Positions 1 to 10,104 of a DNA stretch of 11,100 bases are shown here, in pieces. The number at the start of each line of letters is the position of its first letter. Position 1 is the stretch's first letter. This DNA comes from Candidatus Altarchaeales archaeon (GTDB lineage: Archaea; Altiarchaeota; Altiarchaeia; IMC4; SCGC-AAA252-I15). The translations under genes were made by a program, and so were the position numbers. Where the stretch lies: positions 1 to 11,100 of the forward strand of contig VGJA01000013.1 in the NCBI GenBank assembly GCA_016867655.1, in the 5' to 3' direction. The notes under the pieces are model-generated. The model was not told the DNA's origin, did not search any database, and saw nothing but the letters and a program-made list of their open reading frames with translations.

Positions 1-409
1 AAAAAAGATTGCAAGAGACGGCGAAGGCGCGTCAAAATACCTTGAGTTTGAAGTAACAAACGCCAAAAATGACGCCTCAGCGGCAAAAGTGGCGAAAGCC
101 ATCGCCTCATCTCCACTGGTGAATGCAGCATTCTACGGCGAGAACCCAAACTGGGGCAGAATCATTTCAACCATTGGAAGCAAGATAAAATTCAACCCAA
201 TGGAGACGACAATAAAATTCAGCTCTGAAAAAGGCGGTGTGAATGTCTTCAACCAAGGCACAGTAGGAAACCTGAAAAAAGCGGTGGGAGTGCTGAAGGC
301 AAAGGAAATAAAGGTCACAGTCAACCTAAGGCAGGGCAGAGGCAGCGCTAAAGCCTACACCTGCGACTTGACTGAAAAGTATGTTAGGATAAACGCAGGA
401 TACAGTTAG
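1..409 (+). CDS. argJ: Arginine biosynthesis bifunctional protein ArgJ, C-terminal part (5' end outside window)
   Basis: Glutamate N-acetyltransferase, which transfers the acetyl group of N-acetylornithine to glutamate and so recycles acetyl in arginine synthesis; some members also use acetyl-CoA. The frame is open from base 2, and reading starts inside the gene. About 135 residues are visible. They include RDGEGASKYLEF, then IASSPLVNAAFYGENPNWGRI (compare the family signature SPLVKTA..G.DPNWGRI), and the closing DLTEKYVRINAGYS typical of ArgJ C-termini. The autocleavage threonine that separates the alpha and beta chains lies upstream and cannot be checked, so one- or two-step activity cannot be inferred. 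The internal GTG at 89 is not the start, because family homology continues upstream of it. The stop is 1 base before the rhomboid ATG, so the two are probably co-transcribed and translationally coupled. Confidence 0.93.
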   Translation, partial: KKIARDGEGASKYLEFEVTNAKNDASAAKVAKAIASSPLVNAAFYGENPNWGRIISTIGSKIKFNPMETTIKFSSEKGGVNVFNQGTVGNLKKAVGVLKAKEIKVTVNLRQGRGSAKAYTCDLTEKYVRINAGYS

Positions 410-410
410 A

Positions 411-1031
411 ATGAGATTTCTAGGTTCCAGAATAGGGGCGGTTGAAGCATTGATGGCAGTAAACTTCATCGCATTCCTGGCTACAATGGTTTTTCCAACA
501 ATAATGCTGACGCTATTCGCATTAAGTCCCGGAACAGTGGTATACATGCCTTGGACCATACTGACAAGCATGTTCCTGCATGCAGACGTCATGCACATAA
601 TATTCAACATGATGGCCTTCTACTTTTTCAGCCTCTATCTGGAAAACCTGGTTGGAGAGAAAAACATGCTGAAAGTCTTCTTCACCGGAGGAATCGCCGG
701 GAGCATATTCTACATACTAAGCTCCTTCACACTTGGCACTCCGGAACAAAACACTTTTGCGTTAGGCGCCTCAGGAGGAATCTTTGCAATAGCTGGAGCA
801 CTAGCCATATTAAGGCCATACATGAAGGTTGTAATGATACCCATCTTCATACCAATGCCCCTGTATATAGCAGTCTTCGTGTTCATGGTCCTGCTCTCTT
901 TCATGCCTGGAGTCGCATGGCAGGGCCACCTCGGCGGACTAATAACAGGGGTACTATTCGGCCTACGATGGAAGAAAAGAACAGTAGAACTAATAGCAGT
1001 AAAAGAACCCTACGGATATCGATTTTACTAG
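411..1031 (+). CDS. Rhomboid-family intramembrane serine protease
   Basis: Membrane protease that cleaves substrates within or next to transmembrane helices. The protein has 206 residues and is hydrophobic throughout, with about six helices, which matches the minimal rhomboid core without extra domains. Catalytic serine: Ser121 in GASGG (119-123). Catalytic histidine: His173 in WQGHLGGLITGVLFG (170-184), matching the HxxGxxxG helix. The oxyanion-hole pair corresponds to His62 and Asn66 in HIIFNMM, in the segment that follows the amphipathic WTILTSMFLHADVMH loop. All residues needed for activity are present. The ATG begins 1 base after the argJ stop with no Shine-Dalgarno sequence, suggesting reinitiation. 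The substrate is unknown, and the argJ and ubiA neighbours do not suggest one. Confidence 0.93.
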   Translation: MRFLGSRIGAVEALMAVNFIAFLATMVFPTIMLTLFALSPGTVVYMPWTILTSMFLHADVMHIIFNMMAFYFFSLYLENLVGEKNMLKVFFTGGIAGSIFYILSSFTLGTPEQNTFALGASGGIFAIAGALAILRPYMKVVMIPIFIPMPLYIAVFVFMVLLSFMPGVAWQGHLGGLITGVLFGLRWKKRTVELIAVKEPYGYRFY

Positions 1032-1035
1032 AAAA

Positions 1036-1887
1036 ATGAAAAACAAAATAAAAACGTTGCTGGAGCTTGCAAGACCCAGAAACATGGCCATATCCTTCCT
1101 GGGGGTGATAGTCGGCATGCTCCTTGCATCCAAAACCAGTGCAATAAACATTAATGCCATTTCAGCAGCCATATCCACAATGCTTATCCTTGGCGGAGGA
1201 AACGCCCTAAACGACTACTACGACTACCATGCAGACAAAATAAACCGGCCAAAGCGTCCAATACCCTCAGGCAGAATCAAAAGAGAAACCGTGAAACAAC
1301 TGTCAACGCTAATGTTCCTCGCTGGAATACTTGTCGCATTAAGCATAAACGCCTACTGCCTGCTGCTCGCGATAGCAAACTCTACCATACTCATAGCCTA
1401 CGCAAAATACTCAAAAAAAGCCATCCTGCTTTCAAACACTGCAGTCAGCTACCTGAGCGCCTCAGTATTCGTCTACGGGGCGTTGAGCATATACCAAACA
1501 AACTTGTTCAACCCAACCTGGCTTGGAATACTAGCGACATTGATTGCATCATCATTCTTCATGACACTCTCGCGCGAAATAATAAAAGACATGGAAGATG
1601 TTAAAGGCGACCACAAAATGCACGCAATAACACTGCCAATAAAAATCGGGGTCCACAAGGCAAAAAACACAGCCATCCTCTCTGGATTGATGTCAATAGC
1701 CATAAGCCTCATCCCATTGTTCACAAAAACAACAGGCTTCAACACAACCGCCTATGCACTATTTATAATACCCGCCAACCTAATCTTTATCTCATCCTAC
1801 TTCAAAACACCCAGCAAAAGCCAAAAACACATCGTACTTGGAATGACCATAAGCCTGATAGCATTCCTAACAGGGCGAATACTGTGA
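1036..1887 (+). CDS. UbiA-family prenyltransferase, probably digeranylgeranylglyceryl phosphate synthase
   Basis: Integral membrane prenyltransferase of 283 residues. In archaea this subfamily typically adds the second geranylgeranyl chain to geranylgeranylglyceryl phosphate in ether-lipid synthesis. Both Asp-rich Mg-diphosphate motifs are present: NDYYDYHAD at 59-67 (N59, D60, D63, D67), followed by KINRPKRPIPSGRI, and KDMEDVKGD at 184-192 (D185, D188, D192), preceded by SRE. The rest is a succession of about eight to nine hydrophobic helices. NDYYDxxxDxxNRPxRPIPSG is the pattern of the archaeal lipid enzymes and of (bacterio)chlorophyll/UbiA relatives, so the substrate is inferred and a quinone or heme prenyltransferase cannot be excluded. 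The ATG is 4 bases after the rhomboid stop; last gene of the + strand run. Confidence 0.9.
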   Translation: MKNKIKTLLELARPRNMAISFLGVIVGMLLASKTSAININAISAAISTMLILGGGNALNDYYDYHADKINRPKRPIPSGRIKRETVKQLSTLMFLAGILVALSINAYCLLLAIANSTILIAYAKYSKKAILLSNTAVSYLSASVFVYGALSIYQTNLFNPTWLGILATLIASSFFMTLSREIIKDMEDVKGDHKMHAITLPIKIGVHKAKNTAILSGLMSIAISLIPLFTKTTGFNTTAYALFIIPANLIFISSYFKTPSKSQKHIVLGMTISLIAFLTGRIL

Positions 1888-1911
1888 AAAACTGGATCGA
1901 GTAATTACACT

Positions 1912-1922
1912 CAAAAATAATT
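1912..1922 (+). promoter_or_regulatory. Candidate TATA box for tRNA-Thr transcript
   Basis: AAAAATAATTA is the only convincing AT-rich box between ubiA and tRNA-Thr. A start about 26 bases downstream would fall near 1943, giving a precursor leader of about 50 bases that contains the palindromic repeat. Composition and spacing are the only evidence. Confidence 0.3.
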
Positions 1923-1934
1923 AGCATTCATACA

Positions 1935-1970
1935 GTGCTACCGACCGAGCAAAGCGAGGGAGTGTAGCAC
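1935..1970 (+). repeat. Palindromic intergenic module, copy A
   Basis: Arms GTGCTAC (1935-1941) and GTAGCAC (1964-1970) form a perfect 7-bp stem. The loop holds a 21-base core at 1942-1962: CGACCGAGC, then AA, then AGCGAGGGAG. The same core, with GG in place of AA, recurs on the minus strand at 4120-4140, so this is a dispersed repeat and not unique spacer. Confidence 0.7.
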
Positions 1971-1977
1971 CTTCGAT

Positions 1978-1996
1978 CAATACCCTTTGGGTATTG
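1978..1996 (+). repeat. Perfect 8-bp hairpin abutting tRNA-Thr
   Basis: CAATACCC (1978-1985), loop TTT, GGGTATTG (1989-1996). The last G of the stem is the first base of the tRNA. In the precursor this hairpin would sit directly against the RNase P cleavage site. It may be a second module of the preceding palindromic repeat. Confidence 0.6.
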
Positions 1997-2068
1997 CCTC
2001 AGTAGCTCAGTAGGTAGAGCGATGCCTTGGTAAGGCATAGGTCGCGAGTTCAATTCTCGCCTGAGGCT
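1996..2068 (+). tRNA. tRNA-Thr(GGT)
   Basis: A full cloverleaf of 73 bases. Acceptor GCCTCAG pairs with CTGAGGC. The D arm is GCTCAGTAGGTAGAGC. The anticodon stem ATGCC/GGCAT encloses the loop TTGGTAA with anticodon GGT at 2029-2031. The T arm is GCGAG TTCAATT CTCGC. Discriminator base T73 (2068) is usual for archaeal tRNA-Thr. No intron; CCA is not encoded. It reads ACC and ACU codons. Confidence 0.97.
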
Positions 2069-2076
2069 AAACCGCA

Positions 2077-2091
2077 GGGGGCTCCGCCCCC
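2077..2091 (+). terminator. GC-rich hairpin after tRNA-Thr
   Basis: GGGGGC, loop TCC, GCCCCC: a perfect 6-bp stem 8 bases after the tRNA. It may end the transcript or protect its 3' end. No T-run follows, so a terminator role is uncertain. Confidence 0.4.
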
Positions 2092-2166
2092 TCCCCAGTT
2101 TCAAGTTCTTCCTGACCCACCCCCAGGGAGGATAACGTTGTATTACGCTGTATGAAGAAGTCGTTT

Positions 2167-2176
2167 CTTTAAAAGG
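2167..2176 (+). promoter_or_regulatory. TATA box of the hexuloisomerase gene, implying a leaderless mRNA
   Basis: CTTTAAAAGG is centred about 27 bases before the ATG at 2198, the usual archaeal TATA-to-start distance. No Shine-Dalgarno sequence precedes the ATG. Transcription would therefore begin at or next to the start codon. Confidence 0.5.
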
Positions 2177-2197
2177 ATTCTAGTCCAATAGGTATTT

Positions 2198-2788
2198 ATG
2201 CCAATTAAGTCTGCTATGAAGCAGATTGCAGATCATGTGCACAAGACCATAGAAAAGCTTGACGATTTGGAAGTTGACGTTATGATAGAAGCCGTGAAAA
2301 AGGCTGACAGAATCTTTTTGATGGGAGTAGGCCGCTCCGGCTTGGTTTCAAAAGCGTTCGCCATGAGGCTTGTGCACTTGGGTTTGAAGGCTCATGTCAT
2401 AGGCGAAACCACAACGCCTTCAATAACTAAAAACGATTTGTTGATTGCAGTATCAGGCTCAGGCAGCACAAATTCTGTTGTAAAAGCGGTTGAAATATCG
2501 AAGAAAGTCGGCACGAAAGTTCTTGCAGTCACCTCCTACCCAAACTCAGACTTGGGCAAACTGGCAGACCATGTGGTGAAGATTGAAGGCCGCACCAAAC
2601 TGGACGCAAGTAGAGACGACTTGAAAAGAGAACTAACAGGCTACGAACAATTAACGCCGCTGGGCACATTGTTTGAAGACACTGTGATGATATTCTTCGA
2701 CGGCATAATCGCCAAGCTGATGAACGAACTAGGCACCAAAGAAACAGACATGCAACACAGGCACGCCAAGTTGGAATGGTTTTACTGA
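2198..2788 (+). CDS. hxlB: 6-phospho-3-hexuloisomerase (SIS domain)
   Basis: Interconverts 6-phospho-3-hexulose and fructose 6-phosphate. In archaea without the oxidative pentose phosphate pathway, it works with hexulose-6-phosphate synthase in reverse to supply ribulose 5-phosphate for nucleotides. The 196 residues form one SIS domain. MGVGRSG (42-48) and the phosphosugar loop AVSGSGST (84-91) are clear. The C-terminal part has YEQLTPLGTLFEDTVMIFFD and the closing HRHAKLEWFY, which resemble hexuloisomerases rather than KpsF/GmhA-type SIS proteins. The partner synthase gene is not in this window. The gene is monocistronic, has its own TATA box, and converges on pelota. The call rests on family pattern; a different SIS isomerase is less likely. 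Confidence 0.88.
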   Translation: MPIKSAMKQIADHVHKTIEKLDDLEVDVMIEAVKKADRIFLMGVGRSGLVSKAFAMRLVHLGLKAHVIGETTTPSITKNDLLIAVSGSGSTNSVVKAVEISKKVGTKVLAVTSYPNSDLGKLADHVVKIEGRTKLDASRDDLKRELTGYEQLTPLGTLFEDTVMIFFDGIIAKLMNELGTKETDMQHRHAKLEWFY

Positions 2789-2834
2789 CGGTTTTCAGTT
2801 CTCGGTCTTCAGTCTTCGGAAAACAGAAAACCGT
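2788..2834. terminator. Inverted repeat between convergent hexuloisomerase and pelota genes
   Basis: ACGGTTTTC (2788-2796) and GAAAACCGT (2826-2834) form a 9-bp stem around a 29-base loop; the left arm begins at the last base of the stop codon. The loop has an imperfect direct repeat (TTCAGTTCTCGG / TTCAGTCTTCGG). GAAAACCG is repeated at 2835-2842. The position suits a bidirectional terminator, but this is not proven. Confidence 0.4.
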
Positions 2835-2849
2835 GAAAACCGAATCTTG

Positions 2850-2873
2850 TCCCGAAGGATTCCCGCAAGGGAA
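2850..2873 (+). repeat. Double-hairpin palindromic module
   Basis: Two adjacent small hairpins: TCCCGAAGGA, then TTCCC GCAA GGGAA (2860-2873). The same layout of a GAA-type loop and a GCAA-type loop joined by AT occurs at 4224-4248. The module therefore looks like a member of a dispersed family of short palindromes. Confidence 0.55.
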
Positions 2874-2887
2874 AAAACCCGTGAAAA

Positions 2888-3946
2888 CTATTTTACTCTA
2901 AATCTTAGTATTCCAGCTATCCCGCCTAACGCCTTTAATTGCCTGCCGGCTTCGCTGTCCTGGTTCACTATGTGAACTCTGCCGCGGGAATTCCTGACTG
3001 AATTCATCAATTCTTCAAGAGTTTTTCTTTGCTCCACAAAAGTCTTGTCCGAGATCAGCAGAATTTCAACAGCGCCAAAAGTTATTGCATTCCGGATTTC
3101 CTGCATTCCGTAAGCTGAGAAGCCGTCGTCTTTGCCTATGTGTTCAAGCAGTTTGTTGACTAGATTAACGTCCAACGCGGAGTTGATGTCTTCAAGCACT
3201 TTCTTCAAGACAGGCCGTTTTAAGACTTCGTTGACGCCGTTTACGCCGTGAGAACCGATGTGCTCTAAAACAGTCTTCTTCGCAAGTTCCGGATTTTTTT
3301 CAGACAAAAAAGCCATGAAATGCTCTTTTTCAAAACCAGCTCCGGCAACGATGATTGAATGCACGCTTTCCCTTAAAGCAGTGTTCTGCAAATGCTCTAA
3401 AACCTGATTGTAAAACTCTGTCTTACGCTTTTCCCTCAAATTCAAGTCAAACTTGCCGCCCACAGCAGAAGAAAAGCCTGAATGCTCTATCCTGGACGCT
3501 CTGACCAATCCGAAAGATGCTTCGCCTTCATCAATCACGGCAATCAAGACTTTAGGCCTTAAAGAAGAATCCACCGCATCCTTCAATCTGCTTAAGTCAG
3601 AGTCAAGCCACCTTTCCTTTCGAACTGAAATCACGTCGTCAACCCCAATGTTGAACGAGTGATGCGTTCCAAGAGAAACCACGTCTTCAGGTCCATGGGA
3701 GACGATGCCAAGAACTTTCAATACATTGGAATCAGACTTGAAATCCAACTTCTCCACCTTAATCTCAAGCGTTACAGTCCTCCGTTCAGCATCCATGCCC
3801 TCTTCCTTGCCTTTAACCTTGCGCGTAGTCTTGGATTCAACCAAATCCCTTTCCTGAACAATCTGGCTTAAATACCACAAGTCGTCCAAGCTTTCAACCA
3901 AAAGCTTTACTATACCACGCCGCAAATCCTTAAACAAAACCTTCAT
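2888..3946 (-). CDS. pelA: mRNA surveillance protein Pelota (Dom34 homologue)
   Basis: Ribosome-rescue factor related to eRF1. With an aEF-1A-type GTPase and ABCE1 it splits stalled ribosomes, and it lacks the GGQ peptide-release motif; no GGQ is seen here. The 352 residues match the usual length of about 350. The N-domain begins MKVLFKDLRRGIVKL and has the hallmark VESLDDLWYL. The central domain has SIIVAGAGFEKEHF. The C-terminal domain has YGMQEIRNAITFGAVEILLISD, a clear Pelota signature. I place the start at the ATG at 3946 because the family begins M(K)-[IV]-L there. The in-frame ATG at 3991 would add 15 hydrophobic residues translated from intergenic DNA. There is no Shine-Dalgarno sequence; a weak AT-rich box lies about 26-33 bases upstream. 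In archaea aEF-1A is the likely GTPase partner, and that gene is in this window. Confidence 0.95.
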   Translation of the reverse strand: MKVLFKDLRRGIVKLLVESLDDLWYLSQIVQERDLVESKTTRKVKGKEEGMDAERRTVTLEIKVEKLDFKSDSNVLKVLGIVSHGPEDVVSLGTHHSFNIGVDDVISVRKERWLDSDLSRLKDAVDSSLRPKVLIAVIDEGEASFGLVRASRIEHSGFSSAVGGKFDLNLREKRKTEFYNQVLEHLQNTALRESVHSIIVAGAGFEKEHFMAFLSEKNPELAKKTVLEHIGSHGVNGVNEVLKRPVLKKVLEDINSALDVNLVNKLLEHIGKDDGFSAYGMQEIRNAITFGAVEILLISDKTFVEQRKTLEELMNSVRNSRGRVHIVNQDSEAGRQLKALGGIAGILRFRVK

Positions 3947-4085
3947 AACAACAAAAAATAGGTAGAAAGAGGAAATAAGCGGAATGGACACACGCTAATC
4001 ATGCAGAAGGCAGAGTTTTTCCCAAGGGTTTTGCCCGAACGAGCACCTACCGTTGGTTTCAGAACACCAGTGAGGAAAAAGAGTT
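3947..4085. other. Intergenic stretch with no recognised gene
   Basis: The stretch between pelota and the tRNA-Glu fragment. I looked for tRNA arms, box C/D or H/ACA signs and palindromes and found only small, unconvincing stem-loops. Nothing is supported here apart from the possible pelota promoter at the left end. Confidence 0.4.
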
Positions 4086-4157
4086 TGCTCCCGCCGGGAT
4101 TTCCCCGCTATCGCGGGATCTCCCTCGCTCCGCTCGGTCGAGAACCCGGTCGCCGAG
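4086..4157 (-). pseudogene. tRNA-Glu 3'-end fragment interrupted by a palindromic insertion in the T loop
   Basis: On the minus strand, the segment at 4142-4157 matches the variable-loop and 5' T-arm part of the intact tRNA-Glu. After a 39-base insertion (4103-4141), the segment at 4086-4102 matches its T loop end, 3' T stem, acceptor strand and discriminator exactly (17 of 17). The T stem CCGGG/CCCGG would still pair around the insertion, which falls between TTC and AAAT of the T loop. No 5' half (acceptor, D arm, anticodon) is found upstream. One base of the variable loop is lost and the anticodon-stem arm reads CTCGG in place of TCCGG. The best reading is a decayed duplicate or an attachment-site-like copy of the tRNA-Glu 3' end. 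A 3' half of a split tRNA is a less likely alternative. Confidence 0.65.
4103..4141 (-). repeat. Palindromic intergenic module, copy B (inserted in the tRNA-Glu fragment)
   Basis: 39 bases inserted in the T loop. They contain the 21-base core (CGACCGAGC, GG, AGCGAGGGAG; 4120-4140) that matches copy A at 1942-1962 in 19 of 21 positions. A small hairpin follows: CCCGC, loop GATA, GCGGG. Both sides of the insertion are continuous tRNA sequence, so the insertion boundaries are well defined. Confidence 0.7.
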
Positions 4158-4220
4158 TAAATACAATAGGTTAAATTACATTCACAGAATTTAAAACTAG
4201 AAGGTAGTGCAGAGGGGTCT

Positions 4221-4251
4221 CCTCCCCTTCGGGGATCCCCTTGCGGGGAGG
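4221..4251. repeat. Double-hairpin palindromic module downstream of tRNA-Glu
   Basis: On the + strand: CCCC TTC GGGG (4224-4234), AT, CCCC TTGC GGGG (4237-4248), flanked by CCT and AGG that extend the outer pairing. On the minus strand the loops read GCAA and GAA, the same pair as in the module at 2850-2873. It starts about 13 bases after the tRNA-Glu 3' end and could also act in 3'-end formation. Confidence 0.55.
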
Positions 4252-4263
4252 TCTGTAGCCTCA

Positions 4264-4441
4264 TGCTCCCGCCGGGATTTGAACCCGGGTCGCCGGATGG
4301 CTTTAACCTGCCTCGTTGTTATGTGGGGTTGGTATACCCCACCTTTTCTTTCTTTTTCCCGAGGCTTTTTCTTTCTTTTATTAAAAGAAAGAAAAAGGCT
4401 CCGAAAGTCCGGTATGATTGGCCGGGCTACACTACGGGAGC
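4264..4441 (-). tRNA. tRNA-Glu(TTC) with a 103-nt intron at 37/38
   Basis: Exon 1 is 4402-4441 and exon 2 is 4264-4298, giving a 75-base mature tRNA. Acceptor GCTCCCG pairs with CGGGAGC, with discriminator A. The anticodon stem CCGGA/TCCGG is completed only across the intron. The anticodon loop is CTTTCG+A with anticodon TTC. The variable loop is CGAC and the T arm is CCGGG TTCAAAT CCCGG. The splice junctions form a canonical bulge-helix-bulge: the central 4-bp helix CTTT/AAAG lies between the 3-base bulges CG^G and CC^A, with the intron helix AGCC/GGTT beyond. Removing the intron gives a normal tRNA-Glu, and the D-arm GTGTAGCCCGGCCAATCAT is typical of archaeal tRNA-Glu. CCA is not encoded. 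Confidence 0.93.
4299..4401 (-). other. Structured archaeal tRNA intron (103 nt)
   Basis: Cut by the splicing endonuclease at the bulge-helix-bulge. Beyond the splice helix it contains a near-perfect A/T hairpin of 16-bp arms with a 1-base centre (4365-4397), and a stem GCCTCG/CGAGGC (4310-4315 with 4360-4365). The latter encloses a hairpin GTGGGGT/ACCCCAC with a 6-base loop (4323-4342). A purine tract between the two can compete for pairing with the A/T hairpin arm. The intron is longer than the mature tRNA. No open frame of note is inside it. Confidence 0.85.
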
Positions 4442-4463
4442 GTTGGTTTTAACTATATGTATT

Positions 4464-4477
4464 GTTTATTTATTAAG
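4464..4477 (-). promoter_or_regulatory. TATA box of tRNA-Glu
   Basis: The minus strand reads CTTAATAAATAAAC, centred about 29 bases before the first tRNA base (4441). This places the transcription start a few bases upstream of the mature 5' end, as expected for an archaeal tRNA gene. Confidence 0.5.
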
Positions 4478-4519
4478 AGTTTATTGTGTCTGGTTTTGAG
4501 GGGGTTGTGTGTTAGAAGT

Positions 4520-4828
4520 TCACTTCGTCAGTTCTATTTCGATGTGTACGCCGTCTGGCACTTGTATTCGCATTACTTGCCTTAAGGTTCTTTCGTTGGC
4601 TTCTAGGTCTATGATTCTTTTGTGTATGCGCATTTCCCATCTTTCCCAGGTGGAGGTTCCTTCTCCGTCTGGGCTTTTGAGGGTTGTGATTTTCATTTTG
4701 CGGGTGGGTATGGATATGGGTCCCGCGAATTTGCTGCCTATTTTTTTGGTTATGTCTATTATTTGGCTGCAGACTTCGTGTATTTTTTTTATTTCCCTGC
4801 CTATTAGTATTATTCGTGCTTTTTCCAT
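4520..4828 (-). CDS. rpsJ: 30S ribosomal protein S10 (uS10)
   Basis: Small-subunit protein of the 30S head. The 102 residues match archaeal/eukaryotic uS10. It starts MEKARIILIGREIKKIHEVC; the central AGPISIPTRKMKITTLKSPDGEGTSTWERWEMRIHKRIIDL carries the conserved GP.PLPT and RIHKR-type motifs; and it ends VPDGVHIEIEL. It follows EF-1A, its normal neighbour in the archaeal str cluster. It is separated from EF-1A by 97 bases with a hairpin and has its own TATA-like box, so it may be transcribed independently. No Shine-Dalgarno sequence is seen before the ATG. Confidence 0.96.
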   Translation of the reverse strand: MEKARIILIGREIKKIHEVCSQIIDITKKIGSKFAGPISIPTRKMKITTLKSPDGEGTSTWERWEMRIHKRIIDLEANERTLRQVMRIQVPDGVHIEIELTK

Positions 4829-4855
4829 TGTTTTTTTAGGGGGTAGAATGGTGGA

Positions 4856-4870
4856 GAGTTATTATAGGAG
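4856..4870 (-). promoter_or_regulatory. Candidate TATA box for uS10
   Basis: The minus strand reads CTCCTATAATAACTC, with the core TATAATAA about 33 bases before the uS10 ATG. A start 26 bases downstream gives a leader of under 10 bases, consistent with the missing Shine-Dalgarno sequence. Confidence 0.45.
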
Positions 4871-4892
4871 GGGTGTGTTAAAAAATAGTGTT

Positions 4893-4913
4893 AGGGGGTT
4901 TTGGCAACCCCCT
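4893..4913 (-). terminator. Hairpin between EF-1A and uS10
   Basis: AGGGGGTT / AACCCCCT, a perfect 8-bp stem with a 5-base loop, lying 12 bases after the EF-1A stop. On the minus strand it is followed after a few bases by a T-run. It is a plausible terminator or attenuator separating EF-1A from uS10. Confidence 0.5.
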
Positions 4914-4925
4914 TGTGCCGGTTTT

Positions 4926-6197
4926 TTAGGCTGCTTTTTTCTTTATGTCTATTACCATGCCTGCAGCTACTGTTTGGCCCATGTCTCTTACTGCGAATCT
5001 TCCTAGCTGTGGGAAATCTTTCGCGGCTTCGACTACTATGGGTTTGGTGGGCCTTATTTTTACTACAGCCACGTCTCCTGTTTTCAGGAATTCGGGTTTT
5101 TCTTGTTTTACTCCGCCGCTTTTGGGGTCTATGGTTTTCACCAGCTCTGTGAACTGACAGGCTACTTGGGCTGTGTGTATGTGGAATACTGGCGTGTAGC
5201 CGACTGTTATGGCGCTTGGGTGTTGCAGTATCACGATTTGGGCTGTGAATTCTTCTGCTACTGTGGGCGCGTTGTCTGCTGGCCCGACTACGTCTCCTCT
5301 TTTGACGTCGTCTTTTCCTATGCCTCTGACGTTGAATCCGACGTTGTCTCCTGGCTCGGCCTGCGGGATTTGTTCGTGGTGCATTTCTATTGTCTTGACT
5401 TCTCCGCCTGCGCCGCCTGGCATGAAGACTACTTTCATTCCTGGCTTCATGACGCCGGTTTCTACTCTTCCTACTGGGACTGTTCCAACGCCTGTGATGG
5501 TGTAGGCATCTTGTACTGGCAGTCTTAGGGGTTTGTTTATTGGTTTTTCTGGCGCCTGTAGTTTGTCCAACTCAGTTAATAGCGTGTCTCCTTTGTACCA
5601 GGGTGTGTTTTTGCTTTTTTCTTTTACGTTGTCTCCTTCGTATGCTGATACTGGAATGAAGGGCACTTCTTCGGTTTTGTAGCCGATTGACTTCAACAGT
5701 TTTTCTACGTCTTCTTTGGCTGCTTTTACTTTGCCTTCGTCGTATTTTACTGCATCGATTTTGTTTAAGGCAATGATTATTTGCTTTATTCCCAGTGTCT
5801 TGGAGAGAAATGCGTGTTCTTTGGTCTGTGGTTGCACGCCGTTTACCACGTCTACCACCAAGATTGCCGCATCTGCTTGTGATGTTCCCGTTATCATGTT
5901 TTTGACGAAGTCTCTGTGTCCTGGAGCGTCGATTATTGTGAAGTAGTGTTTGGGGGTCTTGAACTTCTTGTGGGATATGTCTATGGTGACCCCTCTTTCT
6001 CTTTCTTCTTTTAGTTCGTCTAATACCCAGGCGAATTCGAATGTTGCTTTTCCGCCTTTTGCAGCCTCTTCTCTTAAAGCCTTTAGCTTCTGTTCTGAAA
6101 CTTCCCCAACCTCGTAGAGCATTCTTCCTACTAGTGTTGATTTTCCGTGGTCAACGTGTCCGATGAACACCAGGTTCATGTGTGGTAAATCAGCCAT
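4926..6197 (-). CDS. tuf: Translation elongation factor aEF-1A
   Basis: GTPase that brings aminoacyl-tRNA to the ribosome; in archaea it also partners Pelota and aRF1. The 423 residues are within the normal range of 413-435. G1 is GHVDHGKS (13-20). The insert [22 protein letters not shown] carries the G2 threonine. G3 is DAPGH (90-94), G4 NKID (145-148), and the G5 region SAYEGDN (184-190). Domains 2 and 3 follow, with the [16 protein letters not shown] and [16 protein letters not shown] signatures. A strong Shine-Dalgarno GGAGG lies 6 bases before the ATG, unlike most neighbours. The start [19 protein letters not shown] fits the family. It follows EF-2 by 80 bases, with a possible promoter of its own. 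Confidence 0.98.
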
Positions 6198-6203
6198 TTT
6201 TTT

Positions 6204-6208
6204 CCTCC
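6204..6208 (-). promoter_or_regulatory. Shine-Dalgarno site of EF-1A
   Basis: GGAGG on the minus strand, 6 bases before the ATG at 6197. It is the only full-strength ribosome binding site before a gene start in this window, and it confirms the chosen start. Confidence 0.8.
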
Positions 6209-6228
6209 GTATATCGTTTAGTTTAAGC

Positions 6229-6242
6229 CATATTTATTTGAA
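6229..6242 (-). promoter_or_regulatory. Candidate TATA box for EF-1A
   Basis: The minus strand has TTCAAATAAATATGG, centred about 38 bases before the EF-1A ATG. The start would be near 6209, just before the Shine-Dalgarno site, leaving a 12-15 base leader. The evidence is composition and spacing only. Confidence 0.35.
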
Positions 6243-6277
6243 TTTGCCCTTTAAAAATGGTCTCTGGGAGTGTGCTT

Positions 6278-8470
6278 TTAGGACTCCATGTATTCTTCCG
6301 CCCTGGGGAGTTCTTTTTTCATGCCCTTTCTTTCGCGAATCTGCATGATTATTTTTTGCTGTAGTTCTGTGGGAAGCTTGTCGAAGCCAGCGTTTTCGGT
6401 GCTCCAGAGGGCGTGTCCCTCTGTGACGCTTCTTATGTCTCCTGAGAAGCCGAATGATTCTCCTACAGGTATTTTGCCTTCTATTGTCATTAGCTCGTCT
6501 TTCTGGCTCATTTCTCCGACAACTCCTCTGCGTCTCTGCAGTTCTCTGGTCACGTTGCCTAGATAGTCTTGCGGCACGTCTATGTACACGTTTTGCACTG
6601 GCTCTATGATGCAGGGTTTTGCTTTCAGGATGCACGCGTATATGGGATTTTTGACTGCAGGATAGACTTGTGCTGGCCCTCTGTGGATGGCGTCTTCGTG
6701 CAGGACTGCATCGTCTAAGACCACTTTTATGCCTGACATTGGTTCTGCCGCCAACGGTCCTTTGTTCATGACTTGCTCAAAACCATCTAACATCAGTTCC
6801 ATCACTTCGTCCAAATGCTGGATTCCCTTGGTCATGTCCACCATTATGTTGCTGTGGTATATGTCTATAAGCCTTTTGGCTTCTTCGTTGTCCATCCCCA
6901 AGTCGACCAGCTGGGCTCTTAGGTCTTTGCTGCGGTCTTTCCTGCGGCCTTCTTTTATGTCCCCGCTCATTATTGCATTGTATATCTTGGGTTCTAAGGG
7001 TTCCACTTTGATGTAGAATTTGTTGTGCTTGTTGGGCGATTTTCCTTCCACTGGCCCAAACTTCCCCTGCACTGCTTCCCTGTAGACGACGATTGGTGGT
7101 GATGTCTTGATTTCCAAGCCGCCTTGCTTTATCCTGTTTGTTATTACCTCCAGGTGTAGTTCGCCCATTCCTGAAAGCAAATGCTCGCCTGTCTCTTCGT
7201 CTATTTCAGCCTTTAATGTAGGGTCTTCTTTAGCCGTCTGCCTTAGGACTTCTATTACTCTGGGCAGGTCCTTCATGTTTTTGGCTTCGACCGCTATTGT
7301 AACAACCGGCTCTGAGACGTGTTTTATCGCCTCAAACGGCTGCATGTCTTCTGTTGAAACGGTTTCGCCTGCAAAGGCCCTTCTCAGTCCCGTAATTCCG
7401 ACTATGTTTCCTGCCGGAACGGACTCGGCGCGCTCTCTAGACGCTCCGAGGTAGATTCCTATGTTTTGCACTCTTTCTGTTGTTTTCGCCCCCACCAGGT
7501 AGACTTCTTCTCCTTCTTTCAGTGTTCCAGAGAAGATTCTTCCTGTGGCTACTTCTCCTTCCCTTTTGTCGAAAGTCTGGATGTTGGTTATCATTATCGC
7601 AAGCTTTCCGTTGGGGTCGCAGTTTAGCATTGATTTTCCTATTTCAGAGTCGAGTTCGCCCTTCCAAATCTGCGGAACCCTGATTTTCTGCGCCGTCAAT
7701 GGGTTAGGCAGGTGTTTTACGGCCATGTCTAGTATGATTGCATGGGCTGGCGCTCTTTCGAAAAGTTGTTTTTGGTTGTCGTTTCTGCAGCAGTCTATGA
7801 TGTCTTTGAAGGTTATCCCGCTTTTCTTCATGTAGGGCACGTTTATCGCCCACTTGTGGAAGCCTGAGCCGAATGAAACGCTTCCGGCATTCACATCCAT
7901 CCTCCAGTCCACTCCTTCAGGCTGTTTCATCTGGATTATTTTGTTGACTTCAGCTATGATTTTCAGGAACCTCTTTTGCAGTTCGTCTGGAGTGAGCTTT
8001 AGTTCGTTTATCAAACGATCTGTTTTGTTGATGAACAACACCGGCCTGACTCTCTCCCTCAACGCCTGTCCCAAGACTGTTTTGGTCTGGGGCATGACGC
8101 CTTCCACTGCACAAACGAGAACAACCACGCCGTCTACTGCGCGCATCGCTCGTGTAACGTCCCCGCCGAAGTCCACGTGCCCGGGAGTGTCAATCATGTT
8201 TATCAAATATTCTTTGCCGTCAAACTCGTGGACCATTGAAATGTTGGCTGCATTGATTGTGATTCCTCTAGCTTGCTCGTCCTCGTGGAAGTCCAAAGCC
8301 AGCTGTTTTCCAGCGGTTTCGGTTGAAATCAAACCAGCGTTCGCTATCAAGCTGTCGCTCAATGTAGTCTTCCCATGGTCAATATGGGCCACAATACCCA
8401 TGTTCCTAATCTGCTCTGGCCTGCCGACCAGCTTCTTCACCTTCTCAGCAACCTGCTCTTGACGTCCCAT
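6278..8470 (-). CDS. fusA: Translation elongation factor aEF-2
   Basis: Translocase GTPase of the archaeal ribosome. The 730 residues match the usual length of about 730. P loop AHIDHGKTT (28-36), switch I EQARGITI (65-72), G3 DTPGH (94-98) and G4 NKTD (148-151) are all present. Domain II has VATGRIFSGTL. Domain IV carries the diphthamide loop HEDAIHRGPAQVYPAV, in which the modified residue would be His596. That the archaeal/eukaryotic diphthamide site is intact implies that DPH genes are elsewhere in the genome. The C-terminus ends LPRAEEYMES. There is no Shine-Dalgarno sequence; the ATG lies directly after a copy of the 113-bp element, with a TATA-like AATAAA about 30 bases upstream, so a leaderless message is possible. 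Confidence 0.98.
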   Translation of the reverse strand: MGRQEQVAEKVKKLVGRPEQIRNMGIVAHIDHGKTTLSDSLIANAGLISTETAGKQLALDFHEDEQARGITINAANISMVHEFDGKEYLINMIDTPGHVDFGGDVTRAMRAVDGVVVLVCAVEGVMPQTKTVLGQALRERVRPVLFINKTDRLINELKLTPDELQKRFLKIIAEVNKIIQMKQPEGVDWRMDVNAGSVSFGSGFHKWAINVPYMKKSGITFKDIIDCCRNDNQKQLFERAPAHAIILDMAVKHLPNPLTAQKIRVPQIWKGELDSEIGKSMLNCDPNGKLAIMITNIQTFDKREGEVATGRIFSGTLKEGEEVYLVGAKTTERVQNIGIYLGASRERAESVPAGNIVGITGLRRAFAGETVSTEDMQPFEAIKHVSEPVVTIAVEAKNMKDLPRVIEVLRQTAKEDPTLKAEIDEETGEHLLSGMGELHLEVITNRIKQGGLEIKTSPPIVVYREAVQGKFGPVEGKSPNKHNKFYIKVEPLEPKIYNAIMSGDIKEGRRKDRSKDLRAQLVDLGMDNEEAKRLIDIYHSNIMVDMTKGIQHLDEVMELMLDGFEQVMNKGPLAAEPMSGIKVVLDDAVLHEDAIHRGPAQVYPAVKNPIYACILKAKPCIIEPVQNVYIDVPQDYLGNVTRELQRRRGVVGEMSQKDELMTIEGKIPVGESFGFSGDIRSVTEGHALWSTENAGFDKLPTELQQKIIMQIRERKGMKKELPRAEEYMES

Positions 8471-8582
8471 TCTACTTCTTGGTTTAATTCTTATGTTTTA
8501 TTCTCTGGACGCACCCATTTTGAGTTGCGTTCATGAGTCTTATTCTTAAGTTGTATTCGACTCATTTTTGAAGGGTGCGCAT
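8471..8582 (-). repeat. 113-bp element, copy 1 (112 bp), upstream of EF-2
   Basis: Begins ATGCGCACCCTTCAAAAA (minus strand, from 8582) and ends at the base before the EF-2 ATG. By eye it is about 80% identical to the two copies before uS7. Differences cluster between the two fully conserved blocks and near the 3' end. One base is missing in the final spacer relative to the others. It holds the 16-codon frame at 8484-8534. AATAAA lies at 8497-8502, 30 bases before the ATG. Confidence 0.9.
8484..8534 (-). other. Micro-ORF in element copy 1 (16 codons, MNATQNGCVQRIKHKN)
   Basis: ATG to TAA, ending 13 bases before the EF-2 ATG. Same length and frame as the micro-ORFs in copies 2 and 3, with no indel. 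Relative to copy 2, six codons differ: three are synonymous (GTC/GTT, AAA/AAG, AAG/AAA) and three change the residue. The first nine codons encode the same peptide in all copies. Translation is unproven, and shared ancestry of the repeat could explain the frame. Confidence 0.25.
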
Positions 8583-8600
8583 ATTAATCCTAAGTTACTC

Positions 8601-9206
8601 TTATCTTGCCGACTGCGCGATTCTTTCGGTTTCTTCCTTTCGGTTTAGGGCATAGCTTTTGGTGTCGCCGTTGGCTGCAGCTATAATCTCGTCTGCAAGG
8701 CATTCCTCTATCGACTTTTTGTTCTTGAAGGCTGTTGCAAAAGCGCCCAAGGAGATGTACTTCAAGCCAAAGTCAACCCTCCTCTGCGAAGACACGTCCA
8801 CTGCCTGGTGGTACCTAATCCCGCCGTAGATGATTGTGGTTGTCTCCTCTCTGGGCCCAGAGTTGACCAAAGCATCCACAAAAACCTGTATCGGATTCTT
8901 CTTGGTCTTGCTTTCTACGATTTCAAAGGCCTTTTCAACAATCTTCAAGGCGTTCTGCTTTTTTCCAGTGTTGCCGCCGCCTCTGATGAACTTTCCTGCC
9001 ACCTTTTTGGTCCCTTGGCCAGAGCGCATCATCTTGTTCACCAGCCTTTCAACAATGTTCATCTTTGATTTGGAGAACTGCTTTCCGCTCAATCTGCCCG
9101 CCTTGTGCGGCAGGTATATCGGGTTGAGAGAGATGTACCTCTTCATGCCCTCATCCTTAACCAACACTTCGTTGAAGCCCCACCTGCCAAATAGTTTCAC
9201 ATCCAT
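8601..9206 (-). CDS. rpsG: 30S ribosomal protein S7 (uS7)
   Basis: Primary assembly protein of the 30S head that binds the 16S 3' domain. The 201 residues are usual for archaea, which carry an N-terminal extension over bacteria. Visible signatures are NIVERLVNKMMRSG (S7 N-terminal RNA-binding motif), GKKQNALKIVEKAFEIVE, NPIQVFVDALVNSGPREETTTI, GGIRYHQAVDVSSQRRVDF, and the closing DTKSYALNRKEETERIAQSAR. It precedes EF-2, as in the str cluster, with 130 bases between that are almost all repeat copy 1. uS12, normally just upstream, is absent: two copies of the element and uS14 are there instead. There is no Shine-Dalgarno sequence; the ATG at 9206 abuts repeat copy 2. Confidence 0.97.
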   Translation of the reverse strand: MDVKLFGRWGFNEVLVKDEGMKRYISLNPIYLPHKAGRLSGKQFSKSKMNIVERLVNKMMRSGQGTKKVAGKFIRGGGNTGKKQNALKIVEKAFEIVESKTKKNPIQVFVDALVNSGPREETTTIIYGGIRYHQAVDVSSQRRVDFGLKYISLGAFATAFKNKKSIEECLADEIIAAANGDTKSYALNRKEETERIAQSAR

Positions 9207-9319
9207 CTTAATTCTTGGTTTTATTTTTTACTCTTTATTGTCTGAACGCACCCATTTTGAGTTGCATTCATGAGCTTGATTCTTGAGTATTATTCTAAGT
9301 GTTTTTGAAGGGTGCGCAT
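9207..9319 (-). repeat. 113-bp element, copy 2, directly upstream of uS7
   Basis: One of two tandem copies, identical to copy 3 at all but one position (9266 A versus 9379 G on the + strand). It ends at the base before the uS7 ATG. The junction with copy 3 duplicates the ATG context, so each unit begins with ATG. AATAAA (9234-9239) is 30 bases before the uS7 start. The inner hairpin GAATGCA/TGCGTTC keeps pairing as a G-U wobble on the minus-strand RNA. Confidence 0.95.
9221..9271 (-). other. Micro-ORF in element copy 2 (16 codons, MNATQNGCVQTIKSKK)
   Basis: ATG to TAA, ending 14 bases before the uS7 ATG. The single difference from copy 3 is a silent AAC to AAT in codon 2. No similarity to any protein I recognise. 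Being so short, it may be incidental. Confidence 0.25.
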
Positions 9320-9432
9320 CTTAATTCTTGGTTTTATTTTTTACTCTTTATTGTCTGAACGCACCCATTTTGAGTTGCGTTCATGAGCTTGATTCTTGAG
9401 TATTATTCTAAGTGTTTTTGAAGGGTGCGCAT
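9320..9432 (-). repeat. 113-bp element, copy 3, between uS14 and copy 2
   Basis: The distal tandem copy. Its ATGCGC begins 2 bases after the uS14 stop codon, so the pair of elements fills the whole gap from uS14 to uS7 exactly. A unique spacer is absent, as expected for a duplication or insertion at this point. Confidence 0.95.
9334..9384 (-). other. Micro-ORF in element copy 3 (16 codons, MNATQNGCVQTIKSKK)
   Basis: Same peptide as in copy 2. It is followed by the copy 2 ATG context rather than by a real gene, so if micro-ORFs act as leader peptides, this one would precede another leader. Confidence 0.22.
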
Positions 9433-9434
9433 TT

Positions 9435-9566
9435 TTAGCTGTATTTGTTGAACCCGATGCTTTCCGCATGCTCTTTGAAGCACTTTCTGCACATATTCAA
9501 GCCGTACTTGTGCACCATGCCCCGGTTGTTCCCGCACACCCTGCAACGCTGCTCGTGAGCGTCCAT
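9435..9566 (-). CDS. rpsN: 30S ribosomal protein S14, zinc-binding type (uS14)
   Basis: A 43-residue protein of the 30S head. Four cysteines, C8-x2-C11 and C26-x2-C29, form the zinc ribbon. The pattern [22 protein letters not shown] and the ending GFNKYS match archaeal uS14 (RC..C...RG..RKYGLN.CR.CF...GF.KYS). It is shorter than the usual 50-56 residues because the basic N-terminal extension is reduced to MDAHEQR. It follows uL5 by 13 bases, as in the spc cluster. The downstream gene is not uS8 but the repeat and uS7. No Shine-Dalgarno sequence is seen. Confidence 0.95.
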
Positions 9567-9579
9567 CTTAAATTTTTTC

Positions 9580-10104
9580 TTAAGTCTCTGCTTCAATTTC
9601 AACACCAAATTTTTCTTTTATGAAATCTATCGACTCCTGCCTTGTGATCGTGTGCTTTTTTGAAGGACTGCGCTGGTTTAGCCTCCTCCTCTTAGTCCGG
9701 TAGCCTGACTTTTCCAGAGTCGTGTTCACATTCAACCCCAGGATTCCTATGTCCGGGTCGTATTTCAAACCCTGTATGTCGATGTACTCGTGTATTCCAA
9801 ACGCCATGTTCCCCGCCTTGTCGAAGTTGTCCTCTGTTAGCTTATTGTCTTTGGCATACAGCATTCTCTTGAGTATTTCTTCCGCTTCTTTGCCTCTTAG
9901 AGTTACCTTGCATCCAATGGGCTCGCCCTTCCTCAGATTCCAGGCTGGAACCTTGTGCTTTGAAAAGGTTCTGATGGTTTTTTTGTTGGTTATCTTCTGC
10001 AGCAGTTTCTCTGCCTTCACTAGTTTTTCCCCGGACTCGCCTGCACCTATGTTCAAGGTTACTTTTTCTATCCTTGGTTTTTGCATCACATTGCTGTATT
10101 CCAT
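9580..10104 (-). CDS. rplE: 50S ribosomal protein L5 (uL5)
   Basis: Large-subunit protein that binds 5S rRNA in the central protuberance. The 174 residues match the archaeal length. The start region [20 protein letters not shown] is the family signature. It continues with [56 protein letters not shown], and the basic [19 protein letters not shown]. The C-terminal archaeal tail is [13 protein letters not shown]. The ATG at 10104 lies one base from the eS4 stop; an in-frame ATG six codons later (MQKPRIEKV) is also possible and closer to some homologues. Confidence 0.96.

Follow-up and report, generated by a model that had tools for sequence, protein, structure and literature searches.

Why should a repeat of about 113 bp end precisely at the start codons of two genes of the translation apparatus? 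The question is raised by the window, that is, the whole stretch of DNA analysed, which corresponds to contig C13 (11,100 bases) of an archaeal genome assembled to 1,152,678 bases in 215 contigs (78.65% complete). The minus strand of the window carries the genes for uS14, uS7, and EF-2 (Pfam names) in this order, and the nearest named relative of its uS7 belongs to a MAG labelled Candidatus Altiarchaeota (88%). Two units of 113 bp are found between uS14 and uS7, and one of 112 bp between uS7 and EF-2, all features of the locus being given here on the minus strand. The tandem pair before uS7 consists of S7a (9320..9432) followed by S7b (9207..9319), the latter ending at the uS7 start codon (9204..9206), and the EF2 unit (8471..8582) ends in the same manner at the EF-2 start codon (8468..8470). 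Upstream of the pair, the native junction (9433..9437) comprises the uS14 stop codon (9435-9437) and 2 nt, after which the ATG of the element follows; a stretch of 18 nt (8583..8600) leads from the uS7 stop to the EF2 unit.

The repeat and its coordinates had been reported in a preliminary description of this DNA, and both proved real, with uS7 starting at 9206 and EF-2 at 8470. The tandem copies, said to carry one difference, differ solely at unit position 54 (C/T), and the third copy of 112 bp, estimated there at about 80% identity, is 80-81% identical to both S7 units over the alignment, with 63 of 74 identical positions across the first 74. Two blocks had been singled out as conserved. The 18-mer ATGCGCACCCTTCAAAAA is indeed present in all three window units, and so is the 29-base block CTCATGAACGCAACTCAAAATGGGTGCGT, which has a single change in the unit at 9207-9319. 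As a control for chance similarity, the best ungapped match of a unit within bases 1-8400 of the window, on both strands, reached 51/113.

A neutral local duplication within one operon would be the simplest answer, and the two uS7 units, being 99% alike, demonstrate that tandem duplication does happen. This explanation is nevertheless extremely improbable and was rejected, since copies were detected on 13 further contigs and the closest relative of the uS7 units outside their locus resides on another contig. A search of the genome with the uS7 pair returned 11 places, with E-values from 2.9e-9 to 2.0e-56 for the top-scoring position per contig on nine contigs other than C13. A covariance model of the unit, built from 14 units, yielded 22 matches at E ≤ 5.1e-4 in about 14 loci (150 of 397 first-look candidates scored), namely those of uS7, EF-2, C99 (behind uL2), C40, C55, C143, C5, C14, C3, C78, C53, C18 with C83, C65, and C108. 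C18 and C83 are counted together, as they probably represent one locus to judge from their contig ends, which are nearly identical if shifted by two bases. A model match on C62 (E 2.05) was dropped, as no unit was seen there. Tandem copy number varies from one to at least three per locus and, as contigs C99, C55, C78, and C18 end inside a unit and C83 begins inside one, the real number of copies may exceed this count.

With regard to the kinship of the copies, the unit nearest to those of uS7 outside their own locus is the C99 unit behind uL2 (86-87%), the EF-2 unit standing at 80-81%. Tandem neighbours share 99% identity at uS7, 96% at C40, and 100% for C55a/b, and less alike neighbours are C55b/c (92%), C18a/C83 (91%), and the C99 units (82%). 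Taken within and between loci, these identities indicate that both dispersal and tandem duplication took place.

Outside this genome, the covariance model matched none of 60 other genomes (one from the same genus, six from the same family, others more distant), which were searched with stricter filters and at most 61 candidates scored per genome; under these filters the element's own genome gives 21 rather than 22 matches, so weak copies in relatives could also escape. An exact strict pattern gave no match in either GTDB genome contigs or viral contigs, sets in which the own genome and very near genomes are perhaps absent, and the C40 pair used as query found no match in phage and plasmid collections. 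Within a 199-kb sample of the same-genus genome (20 of about 100 contigs), no comparable start-codon repeat appeared among the top self-matches listed, where weaker families could escape. As a separate observation, contigs of the present genome have one or more other dispersed repeat families in common, some of them self-complementary (window 2784-2897 and 4345-4444; L017 97-344 and 998-1076; L082 1052-1191; L014 502-594).

The position at start codons is not peculiar to the window. At all 12 loci with a downstream gene on the contig, the array ends at the start of that gene and points in the same direction. The last canonical unit itself adjoins the start codon at ten of them, and at C143 and C53 a diverged or rearranged piece is interposed, beginning with an ATG directly behind the unit and reaching up to the gene. 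Contigs C99 and C78 end before any downstream gene, the C99 array being oriented like the preceding uL2 gene. The start codon following the element is ATG, except for TTG at C65 and C108 and GTG at C143. An ATG is likewise found at the 5′ junction of most units (C99a has ATA), such that most arrays have an ATG on both sides. No other in-frame ATG, GTG, or TTG occurs from the assigned start back to the previous in-frame stop at nine of the 12 loci, and hence there is no start further upstream there; at C55, C3, and C53, an in-frame GTG is located 45 nt upstream of the assigned start, within the 3′ arm, and by its position translation could begin inside the element, adding 15 residues. The preliminary description had held that a random distribution in the genome would speak against a control module, and the placement observed in this genome departs strongly from randomness. 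Such strict placement could alternatively stem from selection for a useful leader.

What the downstream genes encode is mixed. Ribosomal or elongation genes (uS7, EF-2, eL37, and uS15, by Pfam) account for four of the 12 readable loci, and outside the window two of ten are ribosomal. The others include genes for an Rrp4-like KH protein (behind an SBDS gene), an M48 peptidase, a tautomerase, and methylenetetrahydrofolate reductase, and four downstream proteins had neither a Pfam nor an NCBIfam match. The link to translation genes as such, drawn from uS7 and EF-2, was consequently not borne out. The genome-wide search that had been proposed for copies before further translation genes does find copies elsewhere, but their genes are mixed, and a translation regulon was rejected since too few ribosomal or translation genes are among the loci. 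Of the duplicated or mobile control module suggested earlier, the apparent mobility and the tie to start codons stand, and the association with translation does not. Separately, a series of short G+C-rich inverted repeats was seen on the reverse strand of L078, upstream of the element before eL37.

Comparison with relatives revealed how the native junctions look without the insert. In G001, a genome of the same genus, the uS14 stop is followed by 1 nt and the ATG of uS7, compared with stop, 2 nt, and element ATG in the genome studied here; similarly, the uS7 stop is followed by 5 nt and the EF-2 ATG in G001, and by 18 nt and the element ATG here. The insert before uS7 is absent in all four relatives with a readable junction, and that before EF-2 in all six. 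The element had been proposed as a leader whose absence before these genes in close relatives would count against it, and a conserved leader was rejected on this ground. At C3, the upstream gene of G001, encoding a Nop2-type methylase, crosses the start codon (AGAAA directly followed by ATG), and the identical AGAAA and ATG here continue into the element, with the gene coming after the element tail; the boundary is ambiguous by 4 nt, given that ATGCGCA opens both the G001 gene and the element. Upstream of uS15, both genomes have a recognisably common region, which is followed by the ATG in G001, and by the element's ATG, the element, and TTG here. The junctions are not all base-exact, with 18 nt versus 5 in the relative at EF-2 and 10 nt versus about 2 at Rrp4.

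The region before uS15 deserves a remark of its own. Stretches resembling TTCTGGAT and GGATTCGTCTGG that look conserved between this genome and its relatives were noticed there by eye (L203, L205, L206, L207, L208; L079 about 352-500, reverse strand), and by their similarity they possibly represent an archaeal uS15 leader; the upstream regions in L203, L205, L206, L207, and L079 had no Rfam match at gathering score.

The unit (112-114 bp) consists of an ATG, an arm GCGCACCC, an A-rich loop of 56 nt, a complementary arm GGGTGCGT, an A-rich tail, and the next start codon, the arms occupying positions 3-10 and 67-74 of the ~113-bp unit. In S7a the 5′ arm GCGCACCC is located at 9423..9430 and the 3′ arm GGGTGCGT at 9359..9366; the corresponding arms are at 9310..9317 and 9246..9253 in S7b, and at 8573..8580 and 8509..8516 in the EF2 unit. 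From the hairpin arm, A-rich tails of 39 nt (9207..9245) and 38 nt (8471..8508) extend to the start codons of uS7 and EF-2, respectively. The loop measures 57 nt in C65, and C108 is offset. The tail, with 56% A, measures 38-40 nt in all 17 units that have it complete, a count that leaves out the cut or relic units C55a, C99b, C78, C18b, and C143b. When 17 distinct units were compared over their first 78 positions, the tail being outside this test, the two best conserved 8-nt windows turned out to be the complementary arms (0.971 and 0.963, against 0.815 for the loop). The earlier proposal of a module that is dispersed and apparently mobile, and whose blocks are selectively conserved, is thus supported by the 22 matches at about 14 loci and by these best-conserved arms.

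RNAalifold applied to 14 units predicted exactly the GCGCACCC/GGGTGCGT stem, and none of its pairs was changed on both sides. When 18 rows were aligned, 99.3% of the arm cells pair, compared with 68.4% for a second, inner helix that prolongs the hairpin in about half of the copies. Every measure of covariation in this alignment was easily reached by shuffles, which is because most arm pairs never vary. One arm pair in C83/C18a is changed on both sides, from C-G to U-A. Better evidence for the hairpin comes from two further units outside the alignment, C108 and C143b, whose changed arms rest on single-sequence folds. Those of C108 (GCGCCGC/GCGGCGU) differ in sequence and still pair (z -2.74), and those of C143b (GUGCCUC/GAGGCAU) also differ and pair in a weak fold (z -1.73, 11 of 200 shuffles as good). 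Folded singly, the uS7 units form another hairpin, GAACGCA/TGCGTTC (z -1.9), which was not adopted, as 78.7% of its cells pair and no pair is changed on both sides, although it is possible for the uS7 units. C108 shares no more than 68% identity with any other unit and still has its spacing, and such constant spacing in divergent units argues for some constraint, be it on RNA function or on a moving machinery. The rearranged piece at C53 (L017 2038-2142, reverse strand), some 105 nt situated between the last canonical unit and the methylenetetrahydrofolate reductase gene, has other short inverted repeats, yet here too 39 nt separate the last G+C-rich arm GGGCGTGCGT from the ATG.

The units additionally display an internal repetition of 13 nt, AAGAATAAAACTT-like, with lag 13 ranking first of 37 lags in seven of eight units selected from 17. 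On the consensus, P was 0.0008 for lag 13 and 0.055 when all 37 lags were considered. All 14 genome-wide matches to a two-repeat pattern, with at most three mismatches allowed, fell at element loci, including two in the flank that precedes the first unit of C99, and the reversed control gave two. As a real feature of the unit, this periodicity in the sequences is suggestive only. Five element loci searched against Rfam yielded nothing at E ≤ 0.05, and the window at 8400-9700 gave two chance-level matches (best E 0.57, below gathering score). A coding reading based on the short frames opening with MRTL was discarded, as stop codons fall at differing places among the copies (translated by eye); such a frame is possible as an upstream ORF.

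These features bear on the idea of a cis-regulatory RNA regulon, in which a protein or ligand would bind the hairpin or the 13-nt GAATA-type repeats to control translation, the copies having spread by gene conversion or duplication together with selection. Arms and spacing that are conserved above the rest, a spacing unchanged in divergent copies, the internal 13-nt repetition with its two-repeat pattern (14/14 at element loci versus 2 in the control), and essential genes carrying the module all fit such a regulon. The downstream genes, however, have no common theme (two of ten ribosomal outside the window), the 60 other genomes are without a match, and copy number varies from one to at least three in tandem. 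We therefore regard this explanation as rather unlikely, while taking it seriously.

The reading that we favour, with slightly better than even confidence, is that of a mobile leader cassette, non-autonomous and restricted to the lineage, which would insert at start codons and turn into a 5′ UTR. Briefly, a unit of ~113 bp would be copied to new loci and land in sense orientation at gene start codons, giving the layout native leader, ATG, rest of the unit, start codon, and gene. As the unit opens with ATG and precedes a start codon, more units could stack head to tail with a spacing of ~113 nt. The insert would then be transcribed as 5′ UTR, presenting an 8-bp hairpin, a 56-nt A-rich loop, and an A-rich tail of 38-40 nt running into the real start codon. 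Within the genome and the relatives compared, the nucleotide sequence itself shows that the family is dispersed, oriented with its genes, placed at start codons, missing from the corresponding junctions in relatives, and equipped with pairing arms and a constant spacing. The element presumably moves by a recombinase or a copying process, and hairpin and spacing are likely to matter for RNA function or mobility. Points against this reading are the lack of a Y1 transposase match, a flank duplication that is not significant, the thin covariation of the arms, the weak C143b fold and the other hairpin preferred by the uS7 units, the in-frame GTG at C55, C3, and C53, the junctions that are not base-exact, and selection as another source of the strict placement.

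Movement as single-stranded DNA would be a more specific version, with a REP- or IS200/IS605-like element mobilised by a Y1 (HuH) transposase cutting after ATG. Such cutting would account for the ATG on both sides, the single orientation, and the tandem stacking, and the position of a hairpin arm close to one end, the lack of a clear target duplication, and ATG at most 5′ junctions agree with it. With respect to duplication, locus-specific flank duplication beyond the ATG was not significant (permutation p of 0.073 across 10 loci), and C5 and C143b look duplicated by eye. Against this mechanism, Y1_Tnp had no match in the 78.65%-complete assembly, where the gene could lie in a gap, whereas five of 14 control genomes were positive, and the 56-nt loop is far from the 20-40 bp palindromes of REPs, which makes it an improbable explanation.

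A further locus to consider is C143 (L012 1266-1401), where the first 27 nt of rrp4 are found on either side of a diverged second unit. Judging from these flanks, the doubled rrp4 start perhaps preserves the trace of an insertion. The lysine seen in the relative is retained in the downstream copy, while asparagine takes its place in the upstream relic, and this points to the downstream copy as the working one. This also bears on an intron-like or bypassed insert, which would be removed from the RNA or hopped by the ribosome to restore the native sequence of leader, ATG, and gene. Removal between both start codons would indeed restore the native junction and tolerate the 3′ TTG at C65 and C108. 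What speaks against this explanation is the lysine kept downstream at C143, the ATA at the 5′ end of C99a, the lack of an evident bulge-helix-bulge by eye, and the Shine-Dalgarno-like sites that immediately precede the downstream start at four loci (GAGGTG, GGTGA, GGAGG, and GAGG at C5, C14, C65, and C108), and it is considered very improbable.

For the mobile leader cassette, the same Shine-Dalgarno-like sites at four loci together with the rrp4 copies suggest that translation would begin after the element. The element is also probably transcribed, as it sits where a 5′ UTR would be and a TATA-like box (TTTTTAAAT) precedes the element ATG at C78. By eye, the sense strand of the units showed no T-rich TATA-like box, and with the C78 box located upstream, the element seems to follow the native promoter; a role of the element as promoter was set aside for the same absence of a box in the units. 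That it alters translation is a guess. Insertion at a start codon is expected to harm a gene, and yet genes expected to be essential (uS7, EF-2, uS15, and eL37) have one or two units in front of them and still possess an open frame and a start codon. If true, the proposal would describe a route by which a repeat spreads in a compact archaeal genome by becoming an mRNA leader, as well as a natural set of a dozen genes for studying the effect of one fixed leader on archaeal translation. It may further be ventured, at less than even confidence, that this is a new class of mobile element targeting translation start sites, which copies itself between native leader and coding sequence, leaves the start codon at a fixed distance from a hairpin, and rewires the 5′ UTR of essential genes without breakage.

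Among the titles and abstract openings listed in literature searches, none described this element, and it lacks tested hallmarks of MITEs, REPs, and ribosomal-protein leaders alike. Archaeal ribosomal-protein leaders, as outlined in PMC7247131, are reported for given operons across a lineage. The element resembles them as a structured RNA (predicted here) before ribosomal protein genes, but none of the relatives read has it before uS7 or EF-2, and it precedes unrelated genes and has no Rfam match above chance level. Like the prokaryotic MITEs summarised in the review PMC10969869, among which Correia elements are predominantly immediately upstream of genes, it is small, multicopy, non-autonomous, and dispersed. 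In contrast to their terminal inverted repeats at both ends, the arms here are at 3-10 and 67-74, the 3′ arm lying about 39 nt inside, and single orientation and start-codon precision set the element apart from what that review describes. REP and REPIN sequences are likewise dispersed hairpin-forming repeats outside genes, but REPs are given as 20-40 bp (PMC3733652), as opposed to a unit of 112-114 bp with a 56-nt loop in most units and no Y1 transposase found. The bypassed inserts of Magnusiomyces mitochondria, as presented in PMC5009743, are also many, short, and tied to genes; they disrupt reading frames and are compensated in translation, whereas the Altiarchaeota elements precede the start codon. 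Finally, the TAACTGA direct repeats of Beggiatoaceae, so far as PMC4679880 describes them, form numerous sets that immediately precede start codons, for the most part in forward orientation, and the genes behind them are functionally mixed, include ribosomal ones, and mostly lack a ribosome binding site. An array end at the start codon (12 of 12 readable loci here), the forward orientation, and the mixed genes are shared with these repeats. Theirs are 7-nt units in short arrays, unlike the 112-114-nt unit with pairing arms found here in an archaeon, which has no TAACTGA heptamer and is placed at the start codon itself. Going by that account, the TAACTGA repeat is the nearest described phenomenon found, having placement rather than structure in common with the element.
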